Positions 39,850-55,768 of a stretch of DNA of 64,000 bases are shown here, piece after piece. A program made the position numbers and the translations under genes. A model generated the notes under the pieces. The model worked only from the letters and a program-made list of their open reading frames with translations, had not been told where the DNA came from and did no database searches. Origin of the DNA: Pedobacter glucosidilyticus DSM 23534 (GTDB lineage Bacteria; Bacteroidota; Bacteroidia; Sphingobacteriales; Sphingobacteriaceae); assembly GCF_000425145.1 (NCBI RefSeq), contig NZ_KE384313.1, positions 1 through 64,000 on the forward strand, written 5' to 3'. Position 1 is the first letter of the stretch. Every line of letters starts with the position of its first letter.

Positions 39850-40965
39850 TTACTTCTTCTCAAAAATTTCTTTGAGCTTATCTTCTAAAGCGGTGCCTCT
39901 TAAATTTTTAGCTATGATTTTCCCATTAGGATCTATCAAGAAATTTTTTGGAATAGCATCTATACCATAAGTTTTTGAGATCTCTGTAGTAGAATCTATC
40001 AATTGTGCCCACATCAAATTATCCGTTTTAATGGCTTTTTGCCAAGCATTCCTATCGGTATCTATAGATACACCTAAAATAGTAAAGCCTTTATCTTTAT
40101 ATTTTTCATAAGCACTTACCACAAAAGGATTCTCTTTGCGACAAGGGCCACACCATGATGCCCAAAAATCAAGCAAAACATATTGCCCTTTATAGGATGA
40201 TAGTTTTAAAGGAATACCTTCTGGTGTCTTCTCTTCAAAATCTGTTGCTATAGCACCAATACCCGTAACTTTGGCAATATCTAGTTTTTGCTTTATGATG
40301 TTTGCTATAGCATAGTTTTTTAGTTTATTATCCAGACCATTAAACAATGCTTCTGCTTGGGTATAATCCATGTCATCAATACCTAAATCTTGATTAAAAG
40401 CAAATAAACTTATATAAGATTGTGGATTATTCTTAATAAAACTAATAACCTGTGCCTTTCTTTCGTCTAAAAGCCCCTCATAACGTTCCTGAAAATTTTC
40501 AATAACTTCTGCCTTGGCCTGCTTTTCTGGTGTTAAAGCTGCAAACTCTTTGTTAAGAGCTATCAATTTACTTTCTGATGTTTTTAAAGCTGTTTTATAA
40601 GCCATATCCTCTTTAAATATAGCTAAACCATTTAGCTGGGCTTGTGCAATAGAATCTTTAGCCACAAGGGTAGCATTTCCTGGCTCAATAAACAGGCGGT
40701 AAACATCTTTAGGCCCCTGCTCTTTTAAAGCGTTTCCTTGATGTTGCAATAGCAGAACGGCAACACTAGGTTCTTTCAAATCCAAACTAAAACTAAATTT
40801 TCCGTTATTGATAACTACCGAATCTATGACCTCTGCATTATTTTGGATATAAATAAAGTATAATTTTTTATTTTGGATAGCTGTTGTAAACTCGCCTTTA
40901 AGGCTAAACTGTGCAAAAACTAAAACCGGAACCTGCATAAGCAAGCTTAAGAGTATTTTTTTCAT
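39850..40965 (-). CDS. TlpA-like thiol-disulfide oxidoreductase with DUF4369 domain
   Basis: The 371-aa secreted protein has a signal peptide (MKKILLSLLMQVPVLVFAQ), an N-terminal DUF4369-like beta domain (about 20-130), a helical middle, and a C-terminal thioredoxin/TlpA domain from about 232. The redox site WASWCGPCRKENP is intact. It is typical of Bacteroidota periplasmic thioredoxins that reduce cytochrome c maturation partners or other cysteines. It follows the arginase-like gene by 6 nt and is probably its operon partner. Confidence 0.88.
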   Translation of the reverse strand: MKKILLSLLMQVPVLVFAQFSLKGEFTTAIQNKKLYFIYIQNNAEVIDSVVINNGKFSFSLDLKEPSVAVLLLQHQGNALKEQGPKDVYRLFIEPGNATLVAKDSIAQAQLNGLAIFKEDMAYKTALKTSESKLIALNKEFAALTPEKQAKAEVIENFQERYEGLLDERKAQVISFIKNNPQSYISLFAFNQDLGIDDMDYTQAEALFNGLDNKLKNYAIANIIKQKLDIAKVTGIGAIATDFEEKTPEGIPLKLSSYKGQYVLLDFWASWCGPCRKENPFVVSAYEKYKDKGFTILGVSIDTDRNAWQKAIKTDNLMWAQLIDSTTEISKTYGIDAIPKNFLIDPNGKIIAKNLRGTALEDKLKEIFEKK

Positions 40966-40971
40966 GTGCTT

Positions 40972-42174
40972 TTAATTTAATTTTTGATAAGTACGCCACC
41001 ATAAATCTGGCATCTCACCACTAACAGCCAATTGATAATCTTCATATAAACAAGGTACATAATGAAACCTTTCGTTTTTTGAACCTGCTGATGGATAAGG
41101 AACCTGCATCCACCAACGATCAGTTTTTTTACTTTTTACAAAGATTAGCTCGTGTCCGTCTTCCTGTAAACTGGTTTTATATACGATATAATCTGATTTA
41201 GGGTTCATCGGGAAATCTTTCTTACGGTTATAAAAACCATCTAAAAAACACCAAACCATTTGTGCCATCAACATAGCTGATTGCCCATTTTGATCATAAG
41301 CCGGATTAAATTCATAAAAACCTATCGAGCTTAATTTGTCACTATAGCCAGCATATCTGCAAAGCTGGCAAGCTTCTTCTCCATAAAAACCATTTGGCGC
41401 AGCATTTCCATTAGCAACTGCATCAGAAGAACGTATACTGCTGATATCAAAACTAATCATGTTAGCGTTTCTGATAGCTGGCTCTGCTAGGTGTACAGCT
41501 CCGCTAATTTCTCCTAGCCGTTGTGCATCAAAAAACAGTTTATCCATTACTCTTAAACTATCCTGACTTACAAAATAGGTTTGATAGCCCAAATTACTAA
41601 AGTTGAATAAGTAGTTAGGCTGGTGTAAAAAAATCCTATTGAGGTAAGAAATAGCATCTGTAGCTATAGTCTCATCTTCATCGGCCTCATTCATATCAAA
41701 ATGAGAATCTATCACCAATAAATCTACTTTTTGTTCTAAATCTTCATATCCCATATATTGGGCATAGGTTAAGTCTTGGCTTCCGCCGATGATGATGGGC
41801 AATATATTCAACTTTATAAGCTCGGTAGTAACGGTTTTTAAAGCAATGTAAGTATCTGATAGCTGATGACCGGGTAAGATATTTCCTAAATCGGCAATTT
41901 TTGATTTATATGAACCTTCATTTAGGCTGTATAGCTGCTCGCGAACGTAATCTGGCCCTAAAGCACAACCTTGGTTGTTAATAGCACCTCTGTCATCACA
42001 AACACCAATAATAGCAACATCAAAACTGTCTTCTTCTAAAATAGGGAAATCTGTTTCATAAGCAGTAATTTTCATGCCTAAATGGCTGGTATAATAACCC
42101 GTTTTAGGTTTAAGTTTTTCTATATTGATGGGAGAGAAAAAATCTGCTAAAGACATATTGTTGGTATAAATCAA
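40972..42174 (-). CDS. arginase/formiminoglutamase-fold protein with altered metal site
   Basis: The 400-aa protein has the ureohydrolase fold. Active members hold two Mn ions through GG(D/E)HS, DAHxD and SxDxD. Here the first motif reads GGSQDLT, with Gln133 where His is expected. The second is intact (DSHFD, 156-160). The third is SFDISSI, with Ser245 replacing the second Asp. Two of the six usual ligands are therefore changed, so either one metal is lost or the protein is not a classical hydrolase. Automatic labels such as formimidoylglutamase should be doubted. It is followed immediately by the TlpA-like gene. No hut or arginine genes are adjacent. Confidence 0.75.
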   Translation of the reverse strand: MIYTNNMSLADFFSPINIEKLKPKTGYYTSHLGMKITAYETDFPILEEDSFDVAIIGVCDDRGAINNQGCALGPDYVREQLYSLNEGSYKSKIADLGNILPGHQLSDTYIALKTVTTELIKLNILPIIIGGSQDLTYAQYMGYEDLEQKVDLLVIDSHFDMNEADEDETIATDAISYLNRIFLHQPNYLFNFSNLGYQTYFVSQDSLRVMDKLFFDAQRLGEISGAVHLAEPAIRNANMISFDISSIRSSDAVANGNAAPNGFYGEEACQLCRYAGYSDKLSSIGFYEFNPAYDQNGQSAMLMAQMVWCFLDGFYNRKKDFPMNPKSDYIVYKTSLQEDGHELIFVKSKKTDRWWMQVPYPSAGSKNERFHYVPCLYEDYQLAVSGEMPDLWWRTYQKLN

Positions 42175-42293
42175 ATCAAATATCTAATTTTTCTGTTAAT
42201 TGATATTAAAAATTACGATTAACTCATTTAATATCACCTTTAGGTATTATTAATCAGCTAAGAATATTTAATTTGCCTTTTTAAACTAGCGGC

Positions 42294-43268
42294 ATGATTT
42301 TAATTACAGGAGCAACAGGATTTTTAGGCGCACAACTCACCAAACAACTTTTAGCCCATGAAAGTAAAGTGAGGTGTATCAAAAGAGCATCTTCTGTTAT
42401 ACCCGAAATTTTAAAACCCTTACACAACCAAATAGACTGGGTTGATGCCGATATTTTGGATATTGCCGATTTAACAGATGCCTTTGAGGGCATTACACAT
42501 GTTTACCATTGCGCAGCTTACGTTTCTTTAAACAATTATAATGAAAAAGAAATGATGGCCATCAATGTTGATGGAACAGCCAATATCGTAAACGTATGTT
42601 TAAGCTTTGGCATAACAAAGTTGCTTCATGTAAGTTCTATTGCAGCATTGGGGCAGGTTAAACCCGGTGAAACCATTACAGAAAACCATTATTGGGATGC
42701 TTATGATAAAAATGGCGCTTATGCTATTTCTAAATACCGGGCAGAAATGGAAGTTTGGCGTGGTGTAGAGGAGGGATTAAAAGTAGTTATCGTTAACCCA
42801 TCTCTTATAATAGGTGCCGGTATTGGTAAACAAGGCAGTGGTAAAATATTTGAAACGGTTAAAAAAGGGTTAAACTATTATACTTCAGGTGGTACAGGTT
42901 TGGTAGATGTGGAAGACGTTGCCGAGCTCATGATTAAGCTTATGAAACATGAAGTAGTAAACGAACGCTTTATCTTAAATGCTGAAAACTATAGCTTTAA
43001 ACGATTATTTACAGAAACGGCCATAGCTTTAAACCTAAAAGCTCCTGAAAAAGAATTAAAAGAGTGGCAGGCAAAATTATTTTGGCGTTTAGGGCATTTA
43101 CTGCGTATCCTTAAAATTAAAATCCCGGTAGTGTCTAAAGATTTGCTTAAAGCGGCGTTTCAAACGCAACAGTACAGTAATCAAAAAGTTTCGACCTTGT
43201 TTTCTTATCAGTTTACATCAGTAAAAAGTAGTATTACCAAAAGTGTAAATGGTATAAAATCATTTTAA
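42294..43268 (+). CDS. NAD(P)-dependent epimerase/dehydratase (extended SDR)
   Basis: The 324-aa protein has the Rossmann motif GATGFLGAQL at residue 6 and the catalytic Tyr-x3-Lys in GAYAISKYRAE. Ser is in the HVSSIAALG segment. The pattern fits dihydroflavonol-4-reductase-like extended SDRs. It probably oxidises or reduces a sugar-nucleotide or small carbonyl compound. A SerB-SerA chimera gene follows after 64 nt; operon membership is uncertain. Confidence 0.85.
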   Translation: MILITGATGFLGAQLTKQLLAHESKVRCIKRASSVIPEILKPLHNQIDWVDADILDIADLTDAFEGITHVYHCAAYVSLNNYNEKEMMAINVDGTANIVNVCLSFGITKLLHVSSIAALGQVKPGETITENHYWDAYDKNGAYAISKYRAEMEVWRGVEEGLKVVIVNPSLIIGAGIGKQGSGKIFETVKKGLNYYTSGGTGLVDVEDVAELMIKLMKHEVVNERFILNAENYSFKRLFTETAIALNLKAPEKELKEWQAKLFWRLGHLLRILKIKIPVVSKDLLKAAFQTQQYSNQKVSTLFSYQFTSVKSSITKSVNGIKSF

Positions 43269-43332
43269 TTTCTTTAATTTTCCGTTTTTTTAAAATCATT
43301 TCTGCATTTTTGGGCTTAAAATTTTTTAAGCT

Positions 43333-44625
43333 TTGAATCAGTATTTTATTATAGATTTTGATAGCACTTTCACACAGGTGGAAGCCTTAGATGAACTGGC
43401 AAGAATATCTCTAAAAAACCACCCCGATAGAGAGGCCATTTACAAAAAAATAGAAGACCTTACCAATCTGGCTATGGAGGGTAAGCTTTCTTTCTCAGAA
43501 AGTTTAGAAGGCAGGGTTAAATTGTTAGAGGCTAATAAAGACGATTTAAAAAAGCTTATCAAACATTTAAAAACTAAAGTATCATCTTCTTTCTCTAGAA
43601 ATAAGGTATTCTTTAAAAAGCATGCTAAAGAAGTGTTAATTGTTTCTGGTGGCTTTAAAGAATTTATCACGCCTGTTGTAACGCCTTACCATATCAAAAA
43701 AGAAAATATTTATGCCAATACTTTCATATTTGATGAGCAAGGTAAAATCATCGGTTATGATAAAGCCAACCCACTTTCAGAAGAAGGCGGGAAAGTGAAG
43801 CTTTTACAAAGGATGTCTCTAAAAGGTGATATCTATGGCATTGGCGATGGGCACTCTGATTTCCAACTCAAAGAATCGGGCTTAATTAAGAAATTCTTTG
43901 CTTACACCGAGAATATAGAACGTAAAGCGGTTGCCGAAAAGGCAGACCACGTAACGCCAAGTTTTGATGAATTTCTTTATGTAAGCGATTTACCAAGAGC
44001 TATTTCCTACCCTAAAAACAGAATTTTATGTTTGGTAGTAGGCAACGTACCTGAAGAAAGTATTCAACTCCTTAAAAAGGATGGTTTTTCTATCAGGCAT
44101 AAAGAAACTTTTGAAGATAAGTATGTTAAAGATGTAGGTATGCTACTTTTGGCTGATGGTGAAAAAATAGATAAAGCTACACTTAAAAAAGCCGGAAAGC
44201 TTAAAACCATAGGTTATTTTGGCAATGCTAAAGGCAATATAGATTTTGATGTATGTACAGAAATGGGTATTGTAGTTTTTGATAGTGTAAAAAGTAACCT
44301 TACACATAAAACACTCATCGCTCGTCGTATGGCCGATTTTATCAATACCGGAACAACCTACATGAGTAGTAATTTCCCTAACCTACAACTGCCAAAAATT
44401 GCAGGTTCGCACAGGCTTATCCATATTCATGAAAACGTACCGGGTGTAATGGCTAAAATCACTAAAGTATTGGCTAAGCATCAAATTAATATTGTAGGGC
44501 AGTTTTTAATGACCAACCCTTTAATTGGCTATGTCATTACCGATACCGATACAGAATACGATAAAGTCTTACTTAAAGAAATGCGTAAGGTAGAAAATAC
44601 CATTAAGTTTAGGGTCTTATATTAG
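43333..44625 (+). CDS. SerB-like HAD phosphatase fused to a NAD-domain-less SerA segment and ACT domain
   Basis: The 430-aa protein starts with TTG (no closer ATG). Residues 5-212 are a HAD-IB phosphatase of the SerB type: DFDST (Asp8, Asp10), VSGGFKEF with the motif II Ser, a motif III Lys, and GDGHSD. Residues 229-340 match the substrate-binding domain of 3-phosphoglycerate dehydrogenase (LKTIGYFGNAKGNIDFD, MGIVVFDS), but its NAD-binding domain is missing. Residues 341-430 match the SerA C-terminus (NFPNLQLP, RLIHIHENVPGV, ending IKFRVLY), i.e. an ACT domain. It likely dephosphorylates phosphoserine, with serine feedback through ACT; this last point is inference. The end overlaps the next minus-strand gene by 4 nt. 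Confidence 0.85.
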   Translation: MNQYFIIDFDSTFTQVEALDELARISLKNHPDREAIYKKIEDLTNLAMEGKLSFSESLEGRVKLLEANKDDLKKLIKHLKTKVSSSFSRNKVFFKKHAKEVLIVSGGFKEFITPVVTPYHIKKENIYANTFIFDEQGKIIGYDKANPLSEEGGKVKLLQRMSLKGDIYGIGDGHSDFQLKESGLIKKFFAYTENIERKAVAEKADHVTPSFDEFLYVSDLPRAISYPKNRILCLVVGNVPEESIQLLKKDGFSIRHKETFEDKYVKDVGMLLLADGEKIDKATLKKAGKLKTIGYFGNAKGNIDFDVCTEMGIVVFDSVKSNLTHKTLIARRMADFINTGTTYMSSNFPNLQLPKIAGSHRLIHIHENVPGVMAKITKVLAKHQINIVGQFLMTNPLIGYVITDTDTEYDKVLLKEMRKVENTIKFRVLY

Positions 44626-44837
44626 GCCCTAAGCTGCTTTTTTAGTTTGATGTAGTTCATCACAAAGTAAATAAACAAGGTAACCATACTTAAAAGCATT
44701 AATATGTAGGCGAAAGCGCCAATTTGAACCCACAATTTAGCTCCTGAAATATGGTTGAATTTATAGAAGAAACCTATCAAGGAAAAAGTTAATCCTACTA
44801 AAAAGCCAGTTAAAGCAGTATATTTAAGAGTTTTCAT
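44622..44837 (-). CDS. small two-helix membrane protein
   Basis: The 71-aa protein has two hydrophobic helices (about 7-25 and 36-62) separated by a short polar loop (KFNHISGAK), and a basic C-terminus (KLKKQLRA). It is a small inner-membrane protein of unknown role. The 4-nt overlap with the convergent phosphatase gene is typical of compact packing. Low complexity makes homology hard to judge. Confidence 0.6.
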   Translation of the reverse strand: MKTLKYTALTGFLVGLTFSLIGFFYKFNHISGAKLWVQIGAFAYILMLLSMVTLFIYFVMNYIKLKKQLRA

Positions 44838-44875
44838 AGCTAAAAATTTAGTCTAATTTAATAAACATTCTTTTT

Positions 44876-45529
44876 ATGAGCAATAGCCAAACATTACCCG
44901 TTTTAAATGCCGAAGAAATAAGAGTTTTAGGCGCTTTGATGGAGAAGAGTAAAACTACTCCAGATTATTACCCTATGACTTTAAACGCTTTAACAGCGGC
45001 TTGTAATCAGAAAACATCACGTAAACCTGTTGTTGCTTATGATGAGGAAACGGTAGTGATGACTTTAGACTCATTAAAGAAAAAAGGCTTAATTTCTACC
45101 GCAACAGGTGGTGGTAGCAGAACGGTAAAGTATAAGCACAACTTTGCGATAGTTTTTCCGGTTGTACCACAAGAAGTTGCTTTAATTTGCTTGTTGTTTC
45201 TACGCGGTCCGCAAACACCTGGCGAGCTAAATACCAATTCTGGCAGATTATACGAGTTTGAATCTATAGAAGATGTGCAGCAAACTTTAGAAAAACTAGC
45301 TACAGAAGAACCTGCTTATGTAGTACAATTGCCTAAAAGAGCCGGACAAAAAGAAGCCAGATATGCCCATCTATTTGCTGATGTTGTACTAGATGAAGAT
45401 GATGATTTACCTGAGGAACCTGCTCGCAAATCTGTAGGGGAATTAGAAGCTCGCCTAGCTAAAGTTGAAGATGAACTATCACAATTAAAAGCTGCTTTTG
45501 ATAAGTTGATGAAAGAATTAATGGGTTAA
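44876..45529 (+). CDS. YceH-family protein (DUF480)
   Basis: The 217-aa protein is the DUF480/UPF0502 (YceH) family: it begins LNAEEIRVLGALMEKSKTTPDYYPMTLNALTAACNQKTSRKPV, the typical signature. The family has tandem winged-helix domains and is assumed to bind nucleic acid or protein. A C-terminal coiled-coil (LEARLAKVEDELSQLKAAFDKLM) is present. Function is unknown. It is transcribed alone, divergent from the small membrane protein. Confidence 0.9.
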   Translation: MSNSQTLPVLNAEEIRVLGALMEKSKTTPDYYPMTLNALTAACNQKTSRKPVVAYDEETVVMTLDSLKKKGLISTATGGGSRTVKYKHNFAIVFPVVPQEVALICLLFLRGPQTPGELNTNSGRLYEFESIEDVQQTLEKLATEEPAYVVQLPKRAGQKEARYAHLFADVVLDEDDDLPEEPARKSVGELEARLAKVEDELSQLKAAFDKLMKELMG

Positions 45530-46001
45530 TTACCACAATCATCATTCTTAAAATAAAAGATTTGTTGAACAATTTGTTTCTACTAAGAAAGTAACCTTAT
45601 TCTGAAAGAGTTAAATCTGGTGCGCCATTACCTGAATTCACCTTTTATCATTTCACAAAAAAAGCTGTTTAAACACCATTAAAACAGTTGTACAATATTA
45701 TAGATACCCTATTGAAGTGTAAAGAAGACAACCTTTTTTTACAATTTGCTTATGATTATATCGCTTTTTTAAAAGGTTAATTTTTTAATATAGGATACAT
45801 AAAAAGTGCTCATTCTCTTTATAAGTATACTGTCTTATACTATGGCACCAGCTTTGTAAATCTTGTATCAGAATTTATATCTACCTATGTAAATTTTCTA
45901 TCTATGCAAAACTAAAGAATGTAAGAGTTCAGTTGGGTAGTCAAATTAAGCGCCTCAAAAGTTATTGGTTTTGAGGTGCTTTCAAAGACTAAAAACCATC
46001 A
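45530..46001. other. 472-nt intergenic region, no confident gene
   Basis: AT-rich. A 35-codon open stretch (45673-45780, no ATG) encodes protein-like residues ending in FAYDYIAFLKG and could be a gene remnant; the evidence is weak. A hairpin near the right end is listed separately. I see no other feature. Confidence 0.4.
45950..45979 (-). terminator. terminator hairpin after the esterase gene
   Basis: An 11-position stem (45950-45960 with 45969-45979) with one mismatch on the minus strand lies 22 nt past the esterase stop. Confidence 0.5.
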
Positions 46002-46901
46002 TTATTTCATCCAATTTAATAAAGTCTTAAACCAATCCTCTTGAGTAGTTGTATTATTCAAGCCAAAACCATGTCCGCCAGCTTGATACAAATGTGCTTC
46101 ACTTTTAACGTTAAACTTTTTTAAACTTAAACTATATTGAATGCTATTTTCTACCGGAACCGTTTTATCATCCATGGCATGAACAAGAAAAGCTGGTGGT
46201 GTAGTGGCATTTACCTGCAGTTCATTTGAATATAAATGGATGTTTTCTTCAGTAGGCTGTGCACCTAATAAGTTTGTTCTTGAGCCGTTATGCCTAAACT
46301 GGCCAAAAGAAACTACTGGGTAAATAAGAATAGAAAAATCAGGACGTAAATTGATATGATTAGAATTTTCAATAACCGCTTTTTGAAAATGAGTTGATGC
46401 TGTTGAAGCTAAATGTCCTCCGGCAGAAAAGCCCATGATACCTACTTTATCAGGATTTATACCATACTCCGCCGCGTTTTCCCTTACATACTTAATTGCT
46501 TGTTGTGCGTCTTGAAGTGGCCCGATACTCTTATCCTCCATAATCAAATCAGATGGAAGACGATACTTTAAAACAAAAGCTGTTATGCCGGCTTCTGCAA
46601 ATCTTTTAGCAACATCATACCCTTCATGCTTAATAGCTAAAATAGCGTAGCCACCACCAGGGCATATAATTACTGCTTTACCTGTTTCTTTCCCCTTTTC
46701 TGGAGTAAAAACTTCTAATGTTGGTTTAGTTACTTTGCTAACTCTAGTTTTACCATCGGCCCCAACAACCGTTTGCTCAACATAGTCAGTCGCCACTTTG
46801 GCCCCAGGTATACCATTTGGATATAAATCTATCACCTTATTTTGGGCGTTAGCTAATTGCACAAAACTTATAGCCATCATAAAAATAATTTTTCTCATCA
46901 T
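46002..46901 (-). CDS. secreted alpha/beta-hydrolase (esterase/acetyl-esterase-like)
   Basis: The protein starts with a signal peptide (MMRKIIFMMAISFVQLANAQ). The nucleophile motif GFSAGGH is intact, and the Asp (AMDDKTVP) and His (QAGGHGFG) of the triad are visible. It resembles BD-FAE/acetyl-esterase-type enzymes that deacetylate sugars or hydrolyse small esters. The open frame begins at 46919, overlapping prfB; the ATG at 46901, right after the prfB stop, fits better. Substrate unknown; outside the cytoplasm. Confidence 0.85.
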   Translation of the reverse strand: MMRKIIFMMAISFVQLANAQNKVIDLYPNGIPGAKVATDYVEQTVVGADGKTRVSKVTKPTLEVFTPEKGKETGKAVIICPGGGYAILAIKHEGYDVAKRFAEAGITAFVLKYRLPSDLIMEDKSIGPLQDAQQAIKYVRENAAEYGINPDKVGIMGFSAGGHLASTASTHFQKAVIENSNHINLRPDFSILIYPVVSFGQFRHNGSRTNLLGAQPTEENIHLYSNELQVNATTPPAFLVHAMDDKTVPVENSIQYSLSLKKFNVKSEAHLYQAGGHGFGLNNTTTQEDWFKTLLNWMK

Positions 46902-46902
46902 A

Positions 46903-47992
46903 TTAGTGATTGCCTCCAAACTCCATTAAATAAGACTTTAAAAACTCGTCTAAATCTCCGTCTAACACAGCTTGTGCATTAGAGGTTTCATAATCTGTTC
47001 TTAAATCTTTAACCAATTTGTAAGGATGTAAAACATAATTTCTTATTTGTGAACCCCACTCTATCTTTTTCTTATTTCCTTCTATGGCGGCAGTGGTTTC
47101 TCTGCGTTTACGCATTTCTATCTCAAACAATTGAGATTTTAATAAGCGAATAGCATTTTCTTTATTTTGTAATTGCGAACGAGATTCTTGATTTTTAATG
47201 ATAATACCAGAAGGCTTGTGATATAGCCTTACCGCTGTCTCTACTTTATTAACGTTTTGACCGCCTGCACCACCAGATCTAAAGGTTTCAAATTCAATTT
47301 CTGATGGGTTTATCTCAATTTCTATAGTATCATCAATTAAGGGATAAACATAAACAGAGGCAAAGGAAGTATGTCTTTTGGCATTAGCATCAAACGGAGA
47401 AATTCTGACTAAACGATGTACCCCGTTTTCTCCCTTTAGGTATCCATAAGCAAAATCTCCTTCAAATTGTAAAGTAACCGTTTTAATGCCAGCAACGTCA
47501 CCTTCTTGCGAGTCTTGTTCTATTACTTTATAGCCATTTTTCTCCCCCCACATGATATACATCCGCATAAGCATGCTTGCCCAATCACAGCTTTCTGTAC
47601 CGCCAGCACCAGCAGTTATTTGTAGTACGGCATGTAACTGGTCTTCCTCCGCAGAAAGCATGTTCTTAAACTCCAGATTTTCTAATTCTGCAGTGGCTTT
47701 TTGGTAAGCTTCTTTAACATCATCTTCAGTAGCTTCGCCAGCCTGAAAAAACTCTAGCATCACACCAGCGTCTTCAATAGCAGCAACGGCAGAATCGTAA
47801 GCATCTGTCCAGCTTTTTTTAATTTTAATGGCATGTAAAACTTTCTCAGCCTCTTTAGGATGATCCCAAAAAGTTGGTTCTAGAGAAAGGGCATTTTCAC
47901 GATGTAATTCGGTTAATTTAGCATCAATGTCAAAGATGCCTCCTCAGAGACGTTACCCTGTCTCTTAAATCCTGTAATTGTTCTTTCGTCAT
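46903..47992 (-). CDS. prfB: peptide chain release factor 2 with programmed +1 frameshift
   Basis: RF2 terminates translation at UAA and UGA. The ORF in the main frame starts at 47763, but the real start is 47992 ([20 protein letters not shown]). This 20-codon 0-frame segment ends in an in-frame UGA (47930-47932). The sequence AGGAGGCATCTTTGAC matches the E. coli frameshift site AGGGGGTATCTTTGAC in order and spacing. Ribosomes slip +1 from CTT to GAC and continue for 342 codons, giving 362 aa. The GGQ motif ([17 protein letters not shown]) and the SPF anticodon-like tripeptide ([12 protein letters not shown]) are present. Low RF2 favours slippage, so the gene is autoregulated. It lies 17 nt after the FKBP gene. 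Confidence 0.96.
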
Positions 47993-48009
47993 ATAATAAG
48001 TATCAGCAG

Positions 48010-48876
48010 TTATTTTTTAGAAATTAATTCTATATCAAATTCAAGTATGGTATTTGGCCCTATAACACCTCCCTCACTTCCACTTTCTCCATAAGCATAT
48101 CTTGAAGGGACTATGATTTTTATTTTCCCGCCCACACCAATTTTAGGTAAAGTAATTTGCCATCCTTCAATCAATTCAGAAAGCTTTGAGCTTAAAGGAT
48201 TGGCGCTGGTTCTTGAATCAAATACGGTACCTGATAAAAATCTTCCGGTATAAGCAATGGTAATCTCTGAATCTATAGTAGGGAAGTTACTATCTCCGGC
48301 GGCATTAATTTGATAATAAATTCCAGAAGCATCCTTAATAGCTGTAATATTTTTTTCTGTTAAATATCTATTGATGAGCCTATCTTCATATAGTTCTAAA
48401 TTGCTGTCATCTGCAATTTCTATTCTGGTATCTAAGATAGCATTACCCGGTATGTTAGTGCCTTGTCCATCTTTACCATAAGCTAAATAAGATGGGGTAA
48501 GTATTCTGATAATACCACCCTTTCTAACTTTTCGTATGGTTTCTCTCCAAGAAATTGGTCTGATATATCCTACAAAATCTGATGGAGTTGGATTGTATAT
48601 AGATGTTTCGTAACTAACTGCTTTATTAATAGATGTAGTTTTTTGTCCGATTCTAACCCTGTCAGGATATCTTAAAATCGGTAAATCAGTGTTTCCTGAA
48701 TCAATAACCTGATAATAAAAACCTGTTGAATCTTTCTCAAAATCCAAGTTATTCTTAGCGATAAACTCTTGTATCAATTGGTCTTCTATCTCGTTTAAAG
48801 TTCTGGTTTCTTTTTCGCAAGAAACAGTTAATATGCTTATTGCTACAAGTAAAAACCCAAATAATTTCTTTATCAT
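48010..48876 (-). CDS. tandem-FKBP lipoprotein peptidyl-prolyl isomerase
   Basis: The 288-aa lipoprotein (LTVSCEKE) has two FKBP-like domains. The C-terminal one (about 195-288) has YTGRFLSGTVFDSR, EGWQITLPKIGVGGKI and SRYAYGESGS, close to the canonical form. The N-terminal one (about 60-160) has lost the FDSS motif and key residues, so it is probably non-catalytic. It assists protein folding outside the cytoplasm. It sits one base after the shorter FKBP gene and 17 nt before prfB, so all three are probably co-transcribed. Confidence 0.88.
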   Translation of the reverse strand: MIKKLFGFLLVAISILTVSCEKETRTLNEIEDQLIQEFIAKNNLDFEKDSTGFYYQVIDSGNTDLPILRYPDRVRIGQKTTSINKAVSYETSIYNPTPSDFVGYIRPISWRETIRKVRKGGIIRILTPSYLAYGKDGQGTNIPGNAILDTRIEIADDSNLELYEDRLINRYLTEKNITAIKDASGIYYQINAAGDSNFPTIDSEITIAYTGRFLSGTVFDSRTSANPLSSKLSELIEGWQITLPKIGVGGKIKIIVPSRYAYGESGSEGGVIGPNTILEFDIELISKK

Positions 48877-48877
48877 G

Positions 48878-49363
48878 TTATTGTTGTATCTGTGTTAATT
48901 CAATTTCAAAATCTAAAACTGCGTTGGGAGGAATAACTCCTGAACCTTGTGGACCATAAGCGTATAAAGATGGGATTAATAATCTGATTTTTCCGCCTTG
49001 TTGTATTAAAGGAACTCCTAATCTCCATCCTATAATAAAATTTCCTAATCTTTGATTTCTAAGTGTGTCACTATCAAAAACATTTCCATTTAATAATCTA
49101 CCTTTATAAATAACAGTTATTCTAGGATTAACATTGGTTTTATAGTCGAAATTTCCGGAGCCGGGGTTAGTTATTTGATGATACATCCCAGACTCATGTC
49201 TTACTGCATTTATTTTTTGATCAGCAATAAAGCGCTTTATAGTTTCTTCGTCTTGTTTTAATTGTTTTTGTGCTAGCTCGTATGGGTCAACATTATTATT
49301 CTTTAAACAAGAACTAAATAATGCGACAACCATAAATAAAACTAACCAAACGTACTTCTTCAT
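48878..49363 (-). CDS. FKBP-type peptidyl-prolyl isomerase, lipoprotein
   Basis: The 161-aa lipoprotein starts MKKYVWLVLFMVVALFSSC. One FKBP domain (about 80-160) has VIYKGRLLNGNVFDSD, GWRLGVPLIQQGGKIRLLIP, YAYGPQGSG and IPPNAVLDFEIEL. It is a prolyl isomerase or chaperone in the envelope. It is the first gene of the FKBP-FKBP-prfB-esterase run. Confidence 0.9.
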   Translation of the reverse strand: MKKYVWLVLFMVVALFSSCLKNNNVDPYELAQKQLKQDEETIKRFIADQKINAVRHESGMYHQITNPGSGNFDYKTNVNPRITVIYKGRLLNGNVFDSDTLRNQRLGNFIIGWRLGVPLIQQGGKIRLLIPSLYAYGPQGSGVIPPNAVLDFEIELTQIQQ

Positions 49364-49579
49364 TCTTACTTAATTTACAAATTTATTTAACTTTTTATAT
49401 AAACCTAAGCTTTAACATTATTTAACGTCAAATTTTGGAATATGTGTTTGGTTGATACGTAAAATATCAGCTCTACTGATACATGTATAGCAAATTGGTT
49501 ACAATTATTATAAACTTGAATTTGATTTTTACCTAATCTCAACGGCATTAAATGTTCATAACTCTATGCGCCATAGAGC

Positions 49580-49607
49580 AAAAATGGCCAGAATAAATCC
49601 GGCCATA
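49580..49607 (-). terminator. terminator after thrC
   Basis: A short G/C-rich stem (49584-49589 with 49601-49606, ATGGCC/GGCCAT) is followed on the minus strand by a TTTTT run. It lies about 20 nt past the thrC stop. Confidence 0.65.
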
Positions 49608-49627
49608 AATCATAAAATCTTTATTTA

Positions 49628-50929
49628 CTACTGCGATAATAAATAATCTTTAAACTTTTGATAGCTATTATCCATCACAATTTGATGTTTTGCTTTATGA
49701 TATAGCTCTTCAACTTGTGCTGGTACTTCATAAGGAATGTTTAATTCCTCAAAAACATCAGGGAATTTGCAAGGATGTGCGGTAGCCAAAATTACATAAG
49801 CATGCTTAGGTAACTGGTTTTTAGCTTTTGCTTCTTTTACTGCTAAATAACCTGTAGCTGTATGTGGGCACATGATGTAATTTTGATCTTGATAAACTTC
49901 CTTAATAGCCGTTTTTATAGCATCATCATCAAAAGCTACCGAGTCAAATGCAGCTTCTAGTTTAGCTTTATCGTTGTCAAACATATCTAGTATCCTCACA
50001 AAATTACTTGGATTACCAACATCCATAGCATTGGCTAAGGTTTGTACAGATGGTTTAGCAGTATAAACTCCAGTTTTTAAATACTGAGGAACAATATCAT
50101 TACTATTAGTAGCTGCTATAAATTGTTTTACAGGAACACCCATTTTAGCAGCTAACATACCAGCCGCTATATTACCAAAGTTACCACTTGGGGTAACAAA
50201 AGTGATCTCGTCAAACTGTTGCTTTAAACGAGCATAAGTATTGGCATAGTAAAACATTTGAGGTATCAGCCTGCTGATATTGATAGAATTTGCCGATGTA
50301 AGGTTAAACTTAGCATTCAACTCTTCATCATGAAAAGCTTGCTTTACCATCGCTTGGCAATCATCAAAAGTACCGTCAATCTCTACGGCTTCTATATTAT
50401 TACCATTGGTAGTTAACTGTAATTCTTGTATTAAACTTACTTTCCCTTTAGGGTAAAGGATGGTAACTTTTATACCCGGTACATTTAAGAAACCTAAGGC
50501 TACGGCACCTCCCGTATCGCCAGAGGTAGCTACCAAAATCCTGATTTCTTTTTTCTCTTGCTTTAAAAAATGCGCCATGATACGACTCATGAAACGCCCT
50601 CCAAAATCTTTAAAGGCTAAAGACGGACCATGGAATAACTCTAAAACAAAAACATCATCAGCTAAAGGATGTAAAGGAGCATCAAAATTTGCAGCATCAT
50701 CTACAATAGCTTTTAAATCTTCGGCAGAAATATCATCTTTCAATAAAGCATAAGCTAAATCGAAAGCAATTTCTGGTAAAGATTTTTTATCCCATCCGGC
50801 AATGATATTTTCATCTAAAACTGGGATGGTGGTAGGCATATATAAACCATTATCCGCAGGAAGGCTGTTGAATACTGCCGTTTTAAAATCAACCGATAAA
50901 TGATGGTTTTTGGTACTGTATAGTTTCAT
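49628..50929 (-). CDS. thrC: threonine synthase
   Basis: ThrC converts O-phosphohomoserine to threonine with PLP. The PLP lysine lies in FHGPSLAFKDFGGRF, and the phosphate-binding SGDTGGAVALGF is conserved. The 433-aa length fits. It is the third gene of the thr operon, transcribed after thrB across a 124-nt gap filled by a low-complexity repeat. Confidence 0.96.
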   Translation of the reverse strand: MKLYSTKNHHLSVDFKTAVFNSLPADNGLYMPTTIPVLDENIIAGWDKKSLPEIAFDLAYALLKDDISAEDLKAIVDDAANFDAPLHPLADDVFVLELFHGPSLAFKDFGGRFMSRIMAHFLKQEKKEIRILVATSGDTGGAVALGFLNVPGIKVTILYPKGKVSLIQELQLTTNGNNIEAVEIDGTFDDCQAMVKQAFHDEELNAKFNLTSANSINISRLIPQMFYYANTYARLKQQFDEITFVTPSGNFGNIAAGMLAAKMGVPVKQFIAATNSNDIVPQYLKTGVYTAKPSVQTLANAMDVGNPSNFVRILDMFDNDKAKLEAAFDSVAFDDDAIKTAIKEVYQDQNYIMCPHTATGYLAVKEAKAKNQLPKHAYVILATAHPCKFPDVFEELNIPYEVPAQVEELYHKAKHQIVMDNSYQKFKDYLLSQ

Positions 50930-50933
50930 TTTT

Positions 50934-51053
50934 TTAGTTGGTTGGATGGTTAGTTGGTTAGTTGGTTAGTTGGTTGGATGGATGGTTAGTTGGTTGGTTG
51001 ATTCCTAACAAACTAATACCTAACAAACTAATCAACTAAAACCTAACAAACTA
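50934..51053 (-). repeat. CTAACCAAC/TAGTTTGTTAGG low-complexity repeat between thrB and thrC
   Basis: On the minus strand the gap consists of TAGTTTGTTAGG-type units followed by repeated CCAACTAA and CCATCC units ending directly before the thrC ATG. The two halves are partly complementary. The same words recur before dtd at 55715. Confidence 0.75.
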
Positions 51054-51986
51054 CTATAAAATAACTGGTCCGTTTTTATTAATTTCTGATAAATATATGT
51101 TGCTTGCTATACCTTTATCTAAAAGTACTTGTTGCAAGGTTAGTAACACCCTTTGTGCATCATCCGGCGAACGGAATAAAGAAAATACAGTTGGTCCTGA
51201 TCCTGAAATACCAAAACCTAAAGCACCGTGATGCATGGCTATTTCCTTCATTTTATAAAACTCTGGTATTAACATAGAACGGATAGGTTCTACAATAACA
51301 TCTTTCATACAACGTCCTAGCAAATCATAATCTCCCTGATATAAAGCACTTATCAAGCCAGCAATATTTCCCCATTGGGTAATTGCATCTTTTAACAAAA
51401 CTTTAGAGCGTATAATCTGTCTGGCATCTCTGGTAGGTACATCAACATGCGGATATAATAAAGCGCAATATAAATTTGGTACAGGTAAAGCTATCACCTC
51501 TAAAGGCTCATAACTTTTAATAAGGGTAAAACCGCCAAATAAAGCAGGTGCAACATTATCAGCATGACCATGACCACAAGCTAAAGCCTCGCCTTCCATA
51601 GCAAAAGGCAATAATTCTTCTTTGCTTAAAGGTTTGTCTAATAATTCGTTAATAGCAAATATCCCTGCAACAGAGCTGGCAGCACTAGAACCTAAGCCAC
51701 TTCCTAAAGGCATTTTTTTCTTTAGCTGTAGCTTAACGCCGATGTCTTCACGACCAAGTTGCTTTAAGATGCTTTTTACACCTGCAGCTACCGTGTTACG
51801 GTCGGCATCGAGAGGTAATTTACCACCATCGCCTTCTATAGAGCTTATGACAACGCCCGGTTTATCGCATAGTTCCATGATGAGCTCATCGCCCGGTTCA
51901 TTAACAGCGAAGCCCAAAATATCAAAACCACAAACTACATTAGCAACAGTAGCTGGTGCAAATACTTTTATTGATTTACTGCTCAT
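51054..51986 (-). CDS. thrB: homoserine kinase
   Basis: ThrB phosphorylates homoserine with ATP (GHMP kinase family). The GHMP motif PLGSGLGSSAASSVAG near residue 93 and the C-terminal GISGSGPTVFSLF are both conserved. The 310-aa length is normal. Its start overlaps the thrA stop by one base, so it is translationally coupled. Confidence 0.95.
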   Translation of the reverse strand: MSSKSIKVFAPATVANVVCGFDILGFAVNEPGDELIMELCDKPGVVISSIEGDGGKLPLDADRNTVAAGVKSILKQLGREDIGVKLQLKKKMPLGSGLGSSAASSVAGIFAINELLDKPLSKEELLPFAMEGEALACGHGHADNVAPALFGGFTLIKSYEPLEVIALPVPNLYCALLYPHVDVPTRDARQIIRSKVLLKDAITQWGNIAGLISALYQGDYDLLGRCMKDVIVEPIRSMLIPEFYKMKEIAMHHGALGFGISGSGPTVFSLFRSPDDAQRVLLTLQQVLLDKGIASNIYLSEINKNGPVIL

Positions 51987-54439
51987 TACTGGTTAGCTCC
52001 TACTTTAACTAAATCAGCAAATACACCTGCAGCAGTAACCGCTGCACCAGCACCCGGTCCTTTTACTACCATTTGGGTTTCACAATATCTTTCTGTGGTA
52101 AAGGCTATGATATTATCACTTCCAGATAAAGCATAGAAAGGATGATCCATACCTACAGCTTGCAGGCTAATGCTTGCTTTACCATTTTCTAACTTACCAA
52201 TGTAACGTAAAACTTTACCTTGTTTCTCGGCATCTTGTTTCAGTTGCTCAAAATAATCGTTAGAAGCTTTTAGCTCTTCGTAAAAAGCTTCTACCGTTGG
52301 CGCTTTAGCACAATTTTCTGGTAAAATAGCTCCTAACTCAACATCAGCAGCTTCCATTGGCAAACCACTATTTCTAGCCAAGATTAATATTTTACGCATA
52401 AAATCTATCCCACCTAAATCATCACGAGGGTCTGGCTCTGTATAACCTTTTTCTTGTGCTTGCTTAACTACATCGTGGAAAGTAACATCTCCTTTGAAGT
52501 TATTAAAAATGAAAGAGATAGTACCAGAAAGAATAGCTTCTATCTTAGTAATTTTATCGCCACTGATAATTAAATCATGTAATGTAGTGATGATTGGTAA
52601 ACCAGCGCCTACGTTAGTTTCGTATAAGAAATCTACACCATACTTTTTAGCTGTACTTCTTAAATCTGCAAACTGCTGGTAATCGCTAGAATTGGCAATT
52701 TTATTACAAGTAACCACAGATATGTTCGACTTGAATATATCTTTATACATGGTACTTGGAATTGGGCTTGCAGTATTATCTACAAACACACAATTGGGCA
52801 GATTTAAGCTCTTCATCTCGGCCACAAACTTATTTAAATCTGCAGGCTCGGTTGATTTATCTAGGCTTTGTTGCCAACTTGCTAAATCTATACCGGCCGG
52901 GTCTATCAACATTTTTTTAGTATTGGTTAAACCGATGATTTTGATATTGATGAGATTATTTTCTACTAAATAAGCATGATGAGCATTTATCTGCGAAAGC
53001 AATTCTTTACTGATATTACCCACCCCAACAATAAACACGTTTAAGTTCTTTTGCAATTGCGCAAAAAATGCATCGTGTACAGTATTTAAAGCTTTTGTTA
53101 AATCAGAATTATAGATAATAACGGAGATATTGTATTCTGATGAACCTTGCGCTATAGCAACCACATTTACACCATTTCTACCTAAAGCATGGAAAAGTTT
53201 ACCAGCAATACCTGGTGTTTTCTTCATGTTCTCGCCTACGATAGCTAAAACAGATAAATCATGCTCTATGGTGATAGGCTCTAATTTTCCGGCTTGTAGT
53301 TCTAACTCAAACTCTTGCTGAATTAAATTTTGTGCTTTCTTAGCATCCTCTGGGTTAACCGCAAAAGTAATAGAGTGTTCTGAAGATGATTGCGTAATTA
53401 GAACTACGTTTACCTGCTCTCTAGAAAGTAAAGAGAATAACCTGCCACTAAAACCAGCTTTACCAACCATTCCACTACCTTGCAAATTGATAATGCTGAT
53501 ATGGTCTACAGAAGAAATTCCTCTGATAACGGTTGATGATGGCTTGATATCATGTTTAATGAAAGTTCCAGGGAAACTAGCATCAAAAGTATTTTTAATA
53601 ACAATAGGAATTTTCTTTAAGAAAGCCGGAATCATGGTAGGTGGGTAAATCACTTTTGCCCCAAAGAAAGAAAGCTCCATAGCCTCGGTATAAGAAAGCT
53701 CTTCTAAAGAAAATGCTTTTTTAACCCTTCTTGGGTCGGCAGTCATCATGCCATTAACATCTGTCCAGATTTCTATTTGCGATACATTTAAAGCTGCACC
53801 AATGATGGCAGAAGTATAATCGCTACCACCACGACCAAGAGTTGTTACCCTGTTTTGGTCATCGCTAGCTATAAAACCAGTAGCCACAATTAAACTATCT
53901 TTATGATGTTCAAAGTAGTTCTTGATCAAGAAATTACTTTGCTCAAAATCTACACGGGCATTACCAAAAGTGCTATCTGTTTTAATAATCTCGGTAGTAT
54001 TTAAGTAATCAGCACCTTCATGTATGGTTTTTAAGATTCTAGAAATCATGAAAGCAGAGCATTGCTCGCCATAGCTTAAAATAGCATCACGAGTTTTAGG
54101 GCTTAGCTCTTGTAAGGCTGTAACACCTTGCATTAAATCTTCCAGCTCCTGAAAAAATAATTTTAATTTGGTTAAAACCTGATTTTGTTGTTGTACAGGA
54201 ATCAACGCTTTTACCACTTCAAAGTGTCTTTTTTCTATATCAGCCAAAGCTTCAGAAAAATCAATTCCTTTTATAGCGTTCTCTGCCGTCGTGATTAATT
54301 GGTTGGTAACACCTCCCATAGCAGAAACAACGATAACCATTTGTTCTTGCTTATCAAGGTTAGTTTTAACCACATCTATTAACGCTTTTAAAGCATCTAC
54401 AGACCCAACAGAAGTACCTCCGAATTTTAAAATTTTCAT
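51986..54439 (-). CDS. thrA: bifunctional aspartokinase I / homoserine dehydrogenase I
   Basis: The 817-aa protein has an N-terminal aspartokinase domain (LKFGGTSVGS at residue 3, VSAMGGVTNQLI, and GRGGSDYTSAI), two ACT domains (about 320-460), and a C-terminal homoserine dehydrogenase domain (NVFIVGVGNISKELL near 467, GAGLPIITTL, and the Lys/Asp active site near EPDPRDDLGGIDF). It catalyses the first and third steps of threonine synthesis and is expected to be feedback-inhibited through the ACT domains. It is the first structural gene of the operon and lies downstream of a complete candidate attenuator. Confidence 0.96.
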   Translation of the reverse strand: MKILKFGGTSVGSVDALKALIDVVKTNLDKQEQMVIVVSAMGGVTNQLITTAENAIKGIDFSEALADIEKRHFEVVKALIPVQQQNQVLTKLKLFFQELEDLMQGVTALQELSPKTRDAILSYGEQCSAFMISRILKTIHEGADYLNTTEIIKTDSTFGNARVDFEQSNFLIKNYFEHHKDSLIVATGFIASDDQNRVTTLGRGGSDYTSAIIGAALNVSQIEIWTDVNGMMTADPRRVKKAFSLEELSYTEAMELSFFGAKVIYPPTMIPAFLKKIPIVIKNTFDASFPGTFIKHDIKPSSTVIRGISSVDHISIINLQGSGMVGKAGFSGRLFSLLSREQVNVVLITQSSSEHSITFAVNPEDAKKAQNLIQQEFELELQAGKLEPITIEHDLSVLAIVGENMKKTPGIAGKLFHALGRNGVNVVAIAQGSSEYNISVIIYNSDLTKALNTVHDAFFAQLQKNLNVFIVGVGNISKELLSQINAHHAYLVENNLINIKIIGLTNTKKMLIDPAGIDLASWQQSLDKSTEPADLNKFVAEMKSLNLPNCVFVDNTASPIPSTMYKDIFKSNISVVTCNKIANSSDYQQFADLRSTAKKYGVDFLYETNVGAGLPIITTLHDLIISGDKITKIEAILSGTISFIFNNFKGDVTFHDVVKQAQEKGYTEPDPRDDLGGIDFMRKILILARNSGLPMEAADVELGAILPENCAKAPTVEAFYEELKASNDYFEQLKQDAEKQGKVLRYIGKLENGKASISLQAVGMDHPFYALSGSDNIIAFTTERYCETQMVVKGPGAGAAVTAAGVFADLVKVGANQ

Positions 54440-54497
54440 TTTCTTAAACAGCTAAAAATCTTTTACTGACAATGCAGCTTTGGATTTGACATTAAAA

Positions 54498-54537
54498 TTT
54501 AAATAAAAAGCGCCTTCCGGTTTGTCGGAAGGCGCTT
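54498..54537 (-). terminator. attenuator terminator of the thr operon
   Basis: A perfect 12-bp GC-rich stem (54508-54519 with 54526-54537) with a 6-nt loop is followed on the minus strand by TTTTTATTT. It lies between the leader ORF and thrA. The 5' arm contains CCTTCC, which is complementary to GGAAGG at 54565-54570. Confidence 0.9.
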
Positions 54538-54564
54538 CGTATATTTTATATAAGCCTATAATTA

Positions 54565-54570
54565 CCTTCC
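54565..54570 (-). promoter_or_regulatory. antiterminator arm (GGAAGG)
   Basis: Directly after the leader stop codon the transcript reads GGAAGG, which can pair with CCTTCC in the 5' arm of the terminator (54527-54532). A ribosome at the stop codon would cover it; a ribosome stalled on Thr codons upstream would leave it free. Confidence 0.65.
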
Positions 54571-54571
54571 T

Positions 54572-54625
54572 CTATGCGCAGAGCGTCATGGTGTAAGTAA
54601 TTGTAGTTGTATAGTTATTGTTCAC
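54572..54625 (-). CDS. thrL: thr operon leader peptide
   Basis: A 17-codon ORF starting with GTG encodes MNNNYTTTITYTMTLCA, with six Thr codons and one Ile codon. It starts 17 nt below an excellent promoter and ends seven to ten bases before the antiterminator arm. An in-frame TAA just upstream rules out a longer ORF. Its composition and position are those of a translational attenuator for threonine synthesis. The GTG start is assumed. Confidence 0.8.
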   Translation of the reverse strand: MNNNYTTTITYTMTLCA

Positions 54626-54642
54626 GTTTTTAAATTATGTGC

Positions 54643-54673
54643 CAAATCTAAGCTTTCATTTTTTAAATACAAA
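54643..54673 (-). promoter_or_regulatory. promoter of the thr operon
   Basis: On the minus strand TTTG (54670-54673), exactly 19 nt, then TAGATTTG (54643-54650): a perfect match to the Bacteroidota housekeeping promoter. Transcription should begin near 54637. Confidence 0.85.
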
Positions 54674-54728
54674 CATTTTTCACAGAAAATAGGAAATTCA
54701 TTTAGCCTATAATTATCTTTACAACGGT

Positions 54729-55649
54729 ATGCAGGGATTAGTTATTAAATCAACAGGAAGCTGGTACACTGTTTTAGGTGAAAATCAGCACAAATATGAA
54801 TGCAGGATAAAAGGCAAACTCAGGATGAAAGGTCTGGTAAGCACCAATCCTGTTGCTGTTGGAGATTTTGTTGATTTTGAACTAGAACCTGAGCAAGAAA
54901 CGGCCGTAATCAGTAAAGTTCATGACCGTAAGAATTATATCATCAGAAAATCTATCAACCTATCTAAACAAGTACAAATTATTGCTGCTAATTTAGATCA
55001 GGCTTGTTTGGTGGTAACTTTGGCTTCTCCAAGAACTTCTTTAGGTTTTATAGACCGTTTTTTGGTTACTGCTGAGGCTTATGGAATTCCTGCTATTTTG
55101 ATCTTTAATAAGCTAGATTTATTTAGCGATGAAGGCCTAGAAATCCTTGCCAATTATATGGATTTGTATGAAGGTATAGGCTATAAATGTTATGCGGTAT
55201 CTGCCATAGAAGGCACTCATGTGAATACCATTAAAGAATTGCTGAAAGATAAGACTAGCTTATTTTCGGGTCATTCTGGCGTTGGAAAATCAAGCTTAAT
55301 CAATCAGATCATACCGGGTATTGCTTTAAGAACCGGCGAAATTTCTGATTGGAGCGATATGGGAAAACACACCACTACCTTTGCAGAAATGTTTGAATTG
55401 CCTTTCGGCGGAAAATTAATTGATACTCCAGGCATTAGAGAATTAGGCATTGCCGATATAGAACCAGAGGAGCTTGCTCATTTCTTTCCAGAGATGCGAA
55501 GCCGTATGCATGGTTGCAAATTTCATAATTGCGTACACATTAACGAACCCGGTTGCGCCATTTTAAAAGCCTTAGACGAAGGAGACATTGAACCCACTAG
55601 ATATGATAGCTATTTGAGTATTTATCATAAAAACGATACGAGGGCGTAG
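54729..55649 (+). CDS. rsgA: ribosome small-subunit biogenesis GTPase RsgA
   Basis: RsgA (YjeQ) is a circularly permuted GTPase that helps 30S maturation. The permuted motif order is visible: NKLDLF (G4) precedes GHSGVGKSSLINQ (G1) and DTPGIRELG (G3). An N-terminal OB fold and a C-terminal zinc knuckle (CKFHNCVHINEPGC) are present. The 306-aa length fits. It is divergent from the thr operon. The dtd gene follows 119 nt downstream. Confidence 0.95.
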   Translation: MQGLVIKSTGSWYTVLGENQHKYECRIKGKLRMKGLVSTNPVAVGDFVDFELEPEQETAVISKVHDRKNYIIRKSINLSKQVQIIAANLDQACLVVTLASPRTSLGFIDRFLVTAEAYGIPAILIFNKLDLFSDEGLEILANYMDLYEGIGYKCYAVSAIEGTHVNTIKELLKDKTSLFSGHSGVGKSSLINQIIPGIALRTGEISDWSDMGKHTTTFAEMFELPFGGKLIDTPGIRELGIADIEPEELAHFFPEMRSRMHGCKFHNCVHINEPGCAILKALDEGDIEPTRYDSYLSIYHKNDTRA

Positions 55650-55663
55650 AGCCTCATCCTAAA

Positions 55664-55762: not shown

Positions 55763-55768
55763 TAAAAC

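Follow-up and report, generated by a model that had tools for sequence, protein, structure and literature searches.

In the type II 3-phosphoglycerate dehydrogenase of Escherichia coli, SerA, three side chains of the ACT domain (His344, Asn346 and Asn364) bind the carboxyl and amino groups of serine, and a Gly-Gly hinge before this domain (residues 336-337) takes part in serine inhibition and is missing in the serine-insensitive human enzyme, according to the available sections of PMC6300728. The same sections describe the hinge as a feature of the serine-controlled SerA of E. coli and M. tuberculosis (it does not define an ACT domain); they place the contacts between E. coli SerA subunits at the NAD domains and at the ACT domains, and they count type III enzymes without an ACT domain as not serine-regulated. 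Mycobacterial SerB2, a phosphoserine phosphatase with the layout ACT-ACT-PSP, is inhibited by L-serine with a Ki of about 22 µM, and its ACT domains can impose serine control on phosphoserine phosphatase chemistry (PMC10564941, available text). The fusion of two serine-pathway enzymes also has precedents in oomycete and brown-algal PGDH-PSAT proteins; these join SerA to SerC, not to SerB, and in the accessible parts of PMC2705460 and PMC5715807 they are described as carrying both steps.

We analysed a 64,000-nucleotide stretch of DNA from Pedobacter glucosidilyticus DSM 23534, called the window here, and within it a gene whose 430-residue product (the window protein) puts a HAD-IB phosphatase of the phosphoserine-phosphatase type in front of a SerA that lacks its NAD-binding domain. 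The window protein has the same serine ligand residues as E. coli SerA and, unlike it, has no NAD domain, no R60/R62 and no Gly-Gly hinge, and carries a phosphatase in front. Stand-alone HAD phosphoserine phosphatases (human PSPH, 6hyy; Francisella, 3kd3) have the HAD-IB fold and the active-site residues in common with it, but not the regulatory arm. SerB2 resembles it as a phosphoserine phosphatase with ACT domains and differs from it in having two N-terminal ACT domains, serine contacts at E33, R103 and T136, and no SerA substrate domain; by Pfam, the window protein has one C-terminal ACT domain and none at its N-terminus. Its nearest counterparts with every domain are full SerB-SerA fusions of Bacteroidota, in which the phosphatase, a SYPK(N/S)RI linker, the substrate domain and the ACT domain follow in the same order, and which, unlike the window protein, still have the NAD-binding domain and every SerA catalytic residue that was tested. 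We recognised no description of a SerB-SerA fusion or of its NAD-less form in the titles and opening abstract lines listed by our searches of open-access literature, and the available part of PMC9026213 does not mention the fusion. The parts are known; what is new is their arrangement, their apparent origin by repeated excision and the relocated SerA-type ACT domain.

Domain layout and predicted fold

The gene and its parts are listed below, with residues numbered in the window protein; NAD-less proteins of this kind are called short forms, and full fusions long forms.

43333..44625, + strand: whole gene, 430 aa, TTG start, stop codon at 44623-44625
43333..43977, + strand: HAD-IB phosphatase domain of phosphoserine-phosphatase type, residues 1-215, with D8, D10, E17, R61, S105, K154, D172 and D176
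43978..44016, + strand: linker, residues 216-228; the motif SYPKNRI (residues 225-231) is common to short and long forms
44017..44307, + strand: SerA substrate-binding domain, first part, residues 229-325 (PF00389)
44305..44310, + strand: excision junction, residues 325/326, where SerA ~111 joins ~305 (E. coli numbering)
44308..44403, + strand: SerA substrate-binding domain, last part, residues 326-357, from the SerA model, alignment and fold
44404..44622, + strand: SerA-type ACT domain, residues 358-430, with ligands H366, N368 and N386 (E. coli H344, N346 and N364)

Pfam finds three domains in the window protein, each above its gathering score: HAD at residues 6-179, the 2-Hacid_dh substrate domain at 234-320 and ACT at 362-425, the last scoring 45.9 on PF22629 (cut-off 27) and 27.2 on PF01842 (cut-off 27). 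The NAD-binding domain, PF02826, has no Pfam match in the protein at E 0.1. On the NCBIfam SerA model, residues 328-430 align with SerA 308-410, and the whole protein scores far below the cut-off (146.5 versus 404). Among PDB sequences, the front half is closest to a Francisella phosphoserine phosphohydrolase-like protein and the back half to SerA enzymes. The linker motif SYPKNRI is invariant in all 20 short forms compared, and the nine long forms listed have either SYPKNRI (seven) or SYPKSRI (two).

An AlphaFold2 model, built on an alignment of 20 orthologues, reaches a pLDDT of 83.1 and a pTM of 0.69, and its top Foldseek matches are SerA and phosphoserine phosphatases. Confidence falls to pLDDT 53-68 across residues 191-230, between the two halves, and the orientation of the HAD domain to the arm is not fixed by the model. 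Residues 1-216 superpose on human PSP (6hyy_B) over 202 residues at 2.7 Å with Z 18.7, and residues 227-430 superpose on E. coli SerA 7-410 (2p9e_B) over 203 residues at 1.7 Å with Z 26.9; across the E. coli structures 1psd, 2p9e and 1sc6 the arm fits at 1.7-2.0 Å (Z 26.3-26.9), and on the serine-bound structure 2p9g_A the fit is 1.8 Å (Z 26.7). The combination of substrate-binding fold and ACT domain that marks SerA recurs in the best 12 matches, at Z 26.0-27.0 over 201-205 residues and 1.7-2.3 Å. Because the back half superposes on SerA 7-410, we identify it as SerA minus the NAD domain, with the flanks of the insertion rejoined, and in the predicted fold the substrate-domain/ACT arrangement of SerA is kept. 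The first-pass annotation had described a chimera of a SerB-type phosphatase with an NAD-domain-less SerA and its ACT domain, and had named structural similarity of the arm to SerA as a check; Pfam, NCBIfam and the fold model bear the description out, and the superposition of residues 227-430 supplies the similarity. Of this anatomy, and of the descent set out below, we are nearly certain.

Alignment to E. coli K-12 SerA leaves a gap at ~112-304 that has no counterpart in the window protein, the exact junction point being good to a few residues. Correspondingly, the tblastn pieces of full fusions mostly stop at 322-325, in some cases at 334-337, and start again at 327-331, and the identity in their best piece, which covers the HAD domain and the start of the substrate domain, is 40-49%. 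The NAD domain, itself inserted in the substrate-binding domain, is the sole missing part of SerA. Its absence had been noticed at first pass; the substrate domain, which had been taken to survive as mere segments, in fact keeps both of its halves.

The SerA remnant lacks the marks of a type II dehydrogenase, namely the GxGxxG NAD domain, R240, E269 and H292, and the equivalents of SerA R60-S61-R62 in the window protein are A274-D275-G276. The phosphate-binding Arg60 and Arg/Lys62 are absent from all 59 aligned short forms, and S61 from 58 of them, a Ser being kept at this position in one sequence (L049). By comparison, R60, S61, K at position 62, T63, K141, R240, D264, E269, H292 and GxGxxG are all kept in 17 of 17 full fusions. 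The residue check against E. coli SerA was made on 14 short forms and on 17 of the 19 long ones. Invariance was counted over 59 short and 19 long sequences, after two of the 80 extracted loci were left out (L053, with a broken frame, and L038, for which an upstream start was chosen); the 59 short sequences include repeats, 52 being distinct over the shared columns.

Spread among genomes and descent from full fusions

Across the order, 200 of 201 genomes match the window protein, the exception being G531, and the best match of each has an E of 1.7e-171 or lower; full fusions gave 7.5e-100 at best in the searches of nearby and phylum genomes. We take all 200 genomes to carry short forms on account of this difference, and among the matches listed every place is a colinear short form. 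Within the family, two of 37 genomes gave no match (G016 and G027, both about 2 Mb); together with G531 they are the family members without a match, and the two ~2 Mb genomes may be serine auxotrophs. Sorted by frame length and matched range, the 43 matches among 60 near genomes comprise 36 short forms, five full fusions and two SerA only. Of 395 genomes sampled evenly from the phylum, 87 have a match at 1e-10 and 308 have none, and, with at most four candidates per genome scored, the sample yields 12 short forms, 25 full fusions (frames of 627-687 aa) and a remainder of SerA or SerB pieces. Short-form carriers are, by name, Pedobacter, Pelobium, Hufsiella, Arcticibacter, Solitalea, Mucilaginibacter and Niabella. 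We fetched 19 full SerB-SerA fusions with lengths of 627-636 aa (L058-L060, L074-L078 and L080-L090), those fetched by name being three Bacteroidota metagenome-assembled genomes, two labelled Flavobacteriaceae.

The window protein descends from a complete SerB-SerA fusion that lost its inserted NAD domain. The first-pass annotation had instead supposed that SerB acquired the regulatory half of SerA, which we reject: several families contain full fusions with every domain, the short forms branch from within these, and the short form is such a fusion minus the NAD domain. On the SerA equivalog, whose cut-off is 404, two full fusions reach 646.5 and 636.1, and, as the full fusions retain both the NAD-binding domain and every SerA catalytic residue tested, they are probably bifunctional. 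In one genome (G418), the SerB and SerA matches are adjacent and in separate frames, possibly the state before fusion.

A tree of 71 sequences needs two changes between long and short forms, and in a tree on the HAD and ACT columns of 40 sequences (21 short, 19 long) the main short clade has a support of 100/98. Forcing all short forms into one clade, and with it a single excision, is rejected on the same columns (p-AU 0.004), a test that shares the model's treatment of long branches and in which the second-lineage group was named after the first tree had been seen. The trees thus support two separate excisions of the NAD domain. In the family of the second lineage (G049), all three genomes have the short form, as one intact gene (L079, on a long branch of 1.07), one frame-split copy and one contig-cut copy. 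G624, which belongs to this lineage and contributes L095 and L098, is a single-contig assembly in which two overlapping frames, divided near residue 80, make up the gene, through sequencing error or a real break. The copies from Niabella, a member of the Chitinophagaceae, nest inside Sphingobacteriaceae, and this nesting suggests lateral transfer.

The phosphatase and its SerA-derived arm

Our preferred reading, to which we give a probability of about 0.58, is that the window protein is the organism's SerB and is serine-regulated via the relocated SerA ACT domain. The SerA half of a bifunctional SerB-SerA fusion would have been reduced to a regulatory arm on the phosphatase; the NAD-binding domain would have been cleanly removed, and the leftover substrate-binding domain would still fold and serve as a spacer or lever. 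The ACT domain would pair with the ACT domain of a second chain and bind serine at the interface, and plentiful serine would lower the phosphatase activity through the arm. The first step would now be carried out by a separate ACT-less SerA encoded beside serC, and product control would therefore have moved from the first to the last enzyme. In this scheme we infer phosphoserine hydrolysis, ACT dimerisation, serine binding, and both the direction and the magnitude of the effect. Should the phosphatase indeed respond to serine, the control point of serine synthesis in an order of environmental bacteria would be its last step and not its first. The locus is a natural experiment in the relocation of allosteric control, in which a bifunctional enzyme lost one activity by clean domain removal and the remainder seems to have turned, apparently on two occasions, into a sensor arm for the other activity; the lineages with the apparent sensor arm also have a separate SerA-like enzyme.

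H366, N368 and N386, the equivalents of the E. coli ligands, show no substitution in any of the 59 short and 19 long sequences, and serine feedback on the phosphatase is plausible because these three side chains are invariant. Such feedback had been called a new control point at first pass; it is not new in principle, mycobacterial SerB2 being inhibited by serine (PMC10564941, available text), and what would be new is the route, through a SerA-type C-terminal ACT domain, the SerA-like protein encoded beside serC in the same genome being without one. The three parts of the protein diverge at unequal rates. Mean identity among short forms is 0.76 in the HAD domain, 0.47 in the substrate domain and 0.66 in the ACT domain, and among full fusions it is 0.53, 0.63 and 0.63, respectively. 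The median distance ratio of substrate domain to HAD domain is 2.28 in short versus 0.78 in long forms, and that of ACT to HAD is 1.46 versus 0.78 (13 short sequences, without L079, and 17 long sequences). Median dN/dS in the short form is 0.022 for the HAD domain, 0.045 for the substrate domain and 0.025 for the ACT domain (n = 11, 10 and 8 of 16 pairs, after exclusion of those in which dS was saturated or undefined), and the short form is under strong purifying selection. Set against the invariant ACT ligands, the loss of R60 and R/K62 and the fast divergence indicate, at the level of sequence, that the substrate domain has lost the marks of catalysis and that the serine site has been kept, in an ACT domain somewhat looser than before.

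A possible, though rather unlikely, alternative is that the SerA remnant is a structural tail only, a dimerisation or stability module without serine control, whose ACT site persists because the fold requires it. Dimerisation is a frequent role of ACT domains, and a substrate domain that has no phosphate-binding arginines and diverges quickly would suit such a role. The divergence of the ACT domain relative to the HAD domain is also raised, which could reflect loosened regulation, and the E. coli-type Gly-Gly hinge between substrate domain and ACT domain is present in none of the 59 short and none of the 19 long sequences (0/78), the window protein having Gly-Ser. Against this stand the invariance of H366, N368 and N386 in every short form, an ACT median dN/dS about equal to that of the catalytic domain, and the retention of the ACT domain by two lineages.

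That the window protein is a phosphoserine phosphatase as such, whatever its regulation, is very probable from its sequence. D8, D10, E17, R61, S105, K154, D172 and D176 do not vary across the 59 short and 19 long sequences, and the four aspartates among them substantiate the earlier claim of an N-terminal HAD phosphatase with its catalytic Asp residues. D8, D10, S105, K154, D172 and D176 lie in the DxDST motif, the motif II Ser, the motif III Lys and the motif IV GDxxxD, which we take to be the SerB catalytic motifs; E17 and R61 presumably correspond to the substrate-pocket residues E20 and R56 of the Methanocaldococcus enzyme, the positions being matched by motif. The protein is over the cut-off of the HAD-IB phosphatase model TIGR01488 (60.9 versus 45 bits) and under that of the SerB equivalog TIGR00338 (144.15), with 69.3 for the window protein and 71.9 in the genome search; we therefore file the domain as HAD-IB of the PSP type, and not as a SerB equivalog. 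TIGR00338 is over its cut-off in only seven of 14 control genomes, and two full fusions likewise fall below it, at 74 and 59. In the genome, which is 99.9% complete, the best SerB candidate has 71.9 bits on this model, and the next, at 32.8 and 20.9, lie in frames of 843 and 680 aa. We take the window protein to be the organism's SerB because it is the best HAD-type candidate, candidate genes exist for the other two steps, and HisB is present.

The main substrate of the HAD domain might conceivably be something other than phosphoserine, such as histidinol phosphate, a reading we consider improbable. It draws on the sub-threshold TIGR00338 score and on a proposal, in the accessible text of PMC5764234, that HAD enzymes annotated as phosphoserine phosphatases are histidinol-phosphate phosphatases in four bacteria. 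The genome also has four genes of the histidine-phosphatase family (PF00300), to which phosphoserine phosphatases of a different kind belong (PMC9026213, available part); these four genes leave room for a second SerB and could supply the activity. The HisB N-terminal phosphatase of the genome, however, is over its cut-off (167.8 versus 140), which makes a HisN role unlikely; E17, R61, S105, K154 and the fold match phosphoserine phosphatases, and we found no better HAD-type SerB in the genome. Table 1 of GapMind, in the available portion of PMC7311316, gives a Pedobacter strain, one of 35 taken to make all amino acids, a lysine row and no serine row, and that portion does not name a Pedobacter SerB.

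The remaining steps of the pathway have candidate genes on another contig, where SerC (488.5 bits, over its cut-off) and a 315-aa SerA-like dehydrogenase without an ACT domain are encoded side by side. The 315-aa protein is under both SerA equivalog cut-offs (313.5 versus 454 and 203.8 versus 404), as fits models built on longer SerA, and it is by inference that we regard it as the working SerA. We searched 56 genomes for this arrangement. Among the matches listed, none of the 23 short-form genomes lacks a SerC match or a separate SerA-like gene, and the two are neighbours in 22 of them; the exception is G049, where they lie on different contigs, and the neighbouring SerA-like match of G322 has an identity of only 36%. 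Full-fusion genomes, again among the matches listed, divide into 12 of 29 with an adjacent SerC/SerA-like pair in addition to the fusion and 17 of 29 without such a SerC at 1e-20, in which the best SerA-like match is the fusion itself; the other four genomes have a separate SerB or SerA. This distribution suggests an order from fusion alone, through fusion plus separate SerA, to gutted fusion plus separate SerA. Counter to a simple order, the long forms that stand closest to the main short clade in the tree (G324 and G359) come from fusion-only genomes. Most of the 17 fusion-only genomes also hold other 2-hydroxyacid dehydrogenases, and two have a SerC-like class V aminotransferase downstream of the fusion (L083:3568-4659 and L074:4548-5000), a candidate alternative SerC; both score below every curated SerC cut-off, the one in L074 being cut by the end of the locus.

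With an ACT-less SerA beside serC, the arm might act in trans, the window protein binding this SerA and giving the first step its serine feedback while still serving as SerB, an idea we consider very doubtful. The only SerA-type ACT domain found in the genome is that of the window protein, since just one place matches the protein at E 0.01, and in the model the substrate domain retains its SerA-type fold. Yet the window protein has no NAD domain and the separate SerA has no ACT domain, so neither of the known SerA interfaces can form between the two. We hold it similarly far-fetched that the arm is a shared serine sensor, acting on the phosphatase in cis and associating with the separate ACT-less SerA; one relocated ACT domain would then set flux at both ends of the pathway, in an arrangement reached twice by excision of the same NAD insert. 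A pseudogene or assembly artefact of a full fusion, which the missing domain, the broken frame of the homologue L053 and the split frame of a second-lineage genome might bring to mind, is all but ruled out by a match in 200 of 201 order genomes, invariant catalytic residues and a median dN/dS of 0.02-0.05 in all three parts. For annotation, the preferred reading of a phosphatase with a SerA-derived arm carries a warning, as that stretch can make the phosphatase look like a fragmentary 3-phosphoglycerate dehydrogenase.

The gene and its surroundings

The open frame 43333-44625 (+) has 430 codons and no internal stops. It begins with a TTG at 43333, right after an in-frame stop (43327-43329, two codons upstream), and no ATG precedes Met48, the next Met; in all 17 loci of the genus (L001-L017) the start selected is likewise a TTG at this position. 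Upstream on the same strand lies an NAD-dependent epimerase gene (42294-43268), and a divergent arginase-family gene (40972-42174) is near. Both neighbours are kept in many Sphingobacteriaceae loci, and neither was found at the Niabella loci or the full-fusion loci L058-L060. A terminator-like hairpin of 12 pairs with a T run, at 44606-44635, extends over the gene's stop codon; two such sites were seen in the region against 2.2 expected by chance, and a promoter scan gave three sites against 9.6 expected. No Rfam-type riboswitch matches at the gathering score within 40000-56500. Read by eye, three minus-strand ORFs within 49628-54439 resemble threonine synthase, homoserine kinase and aspartokinase-homoserine dehydrogenase, and the ORF at 13323-14654 resembles serine hydroxymethyltransferase. 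The window protein is 100% identical to a protein of a Pedobacter glucosidilyticus metagenome-assembled genome.
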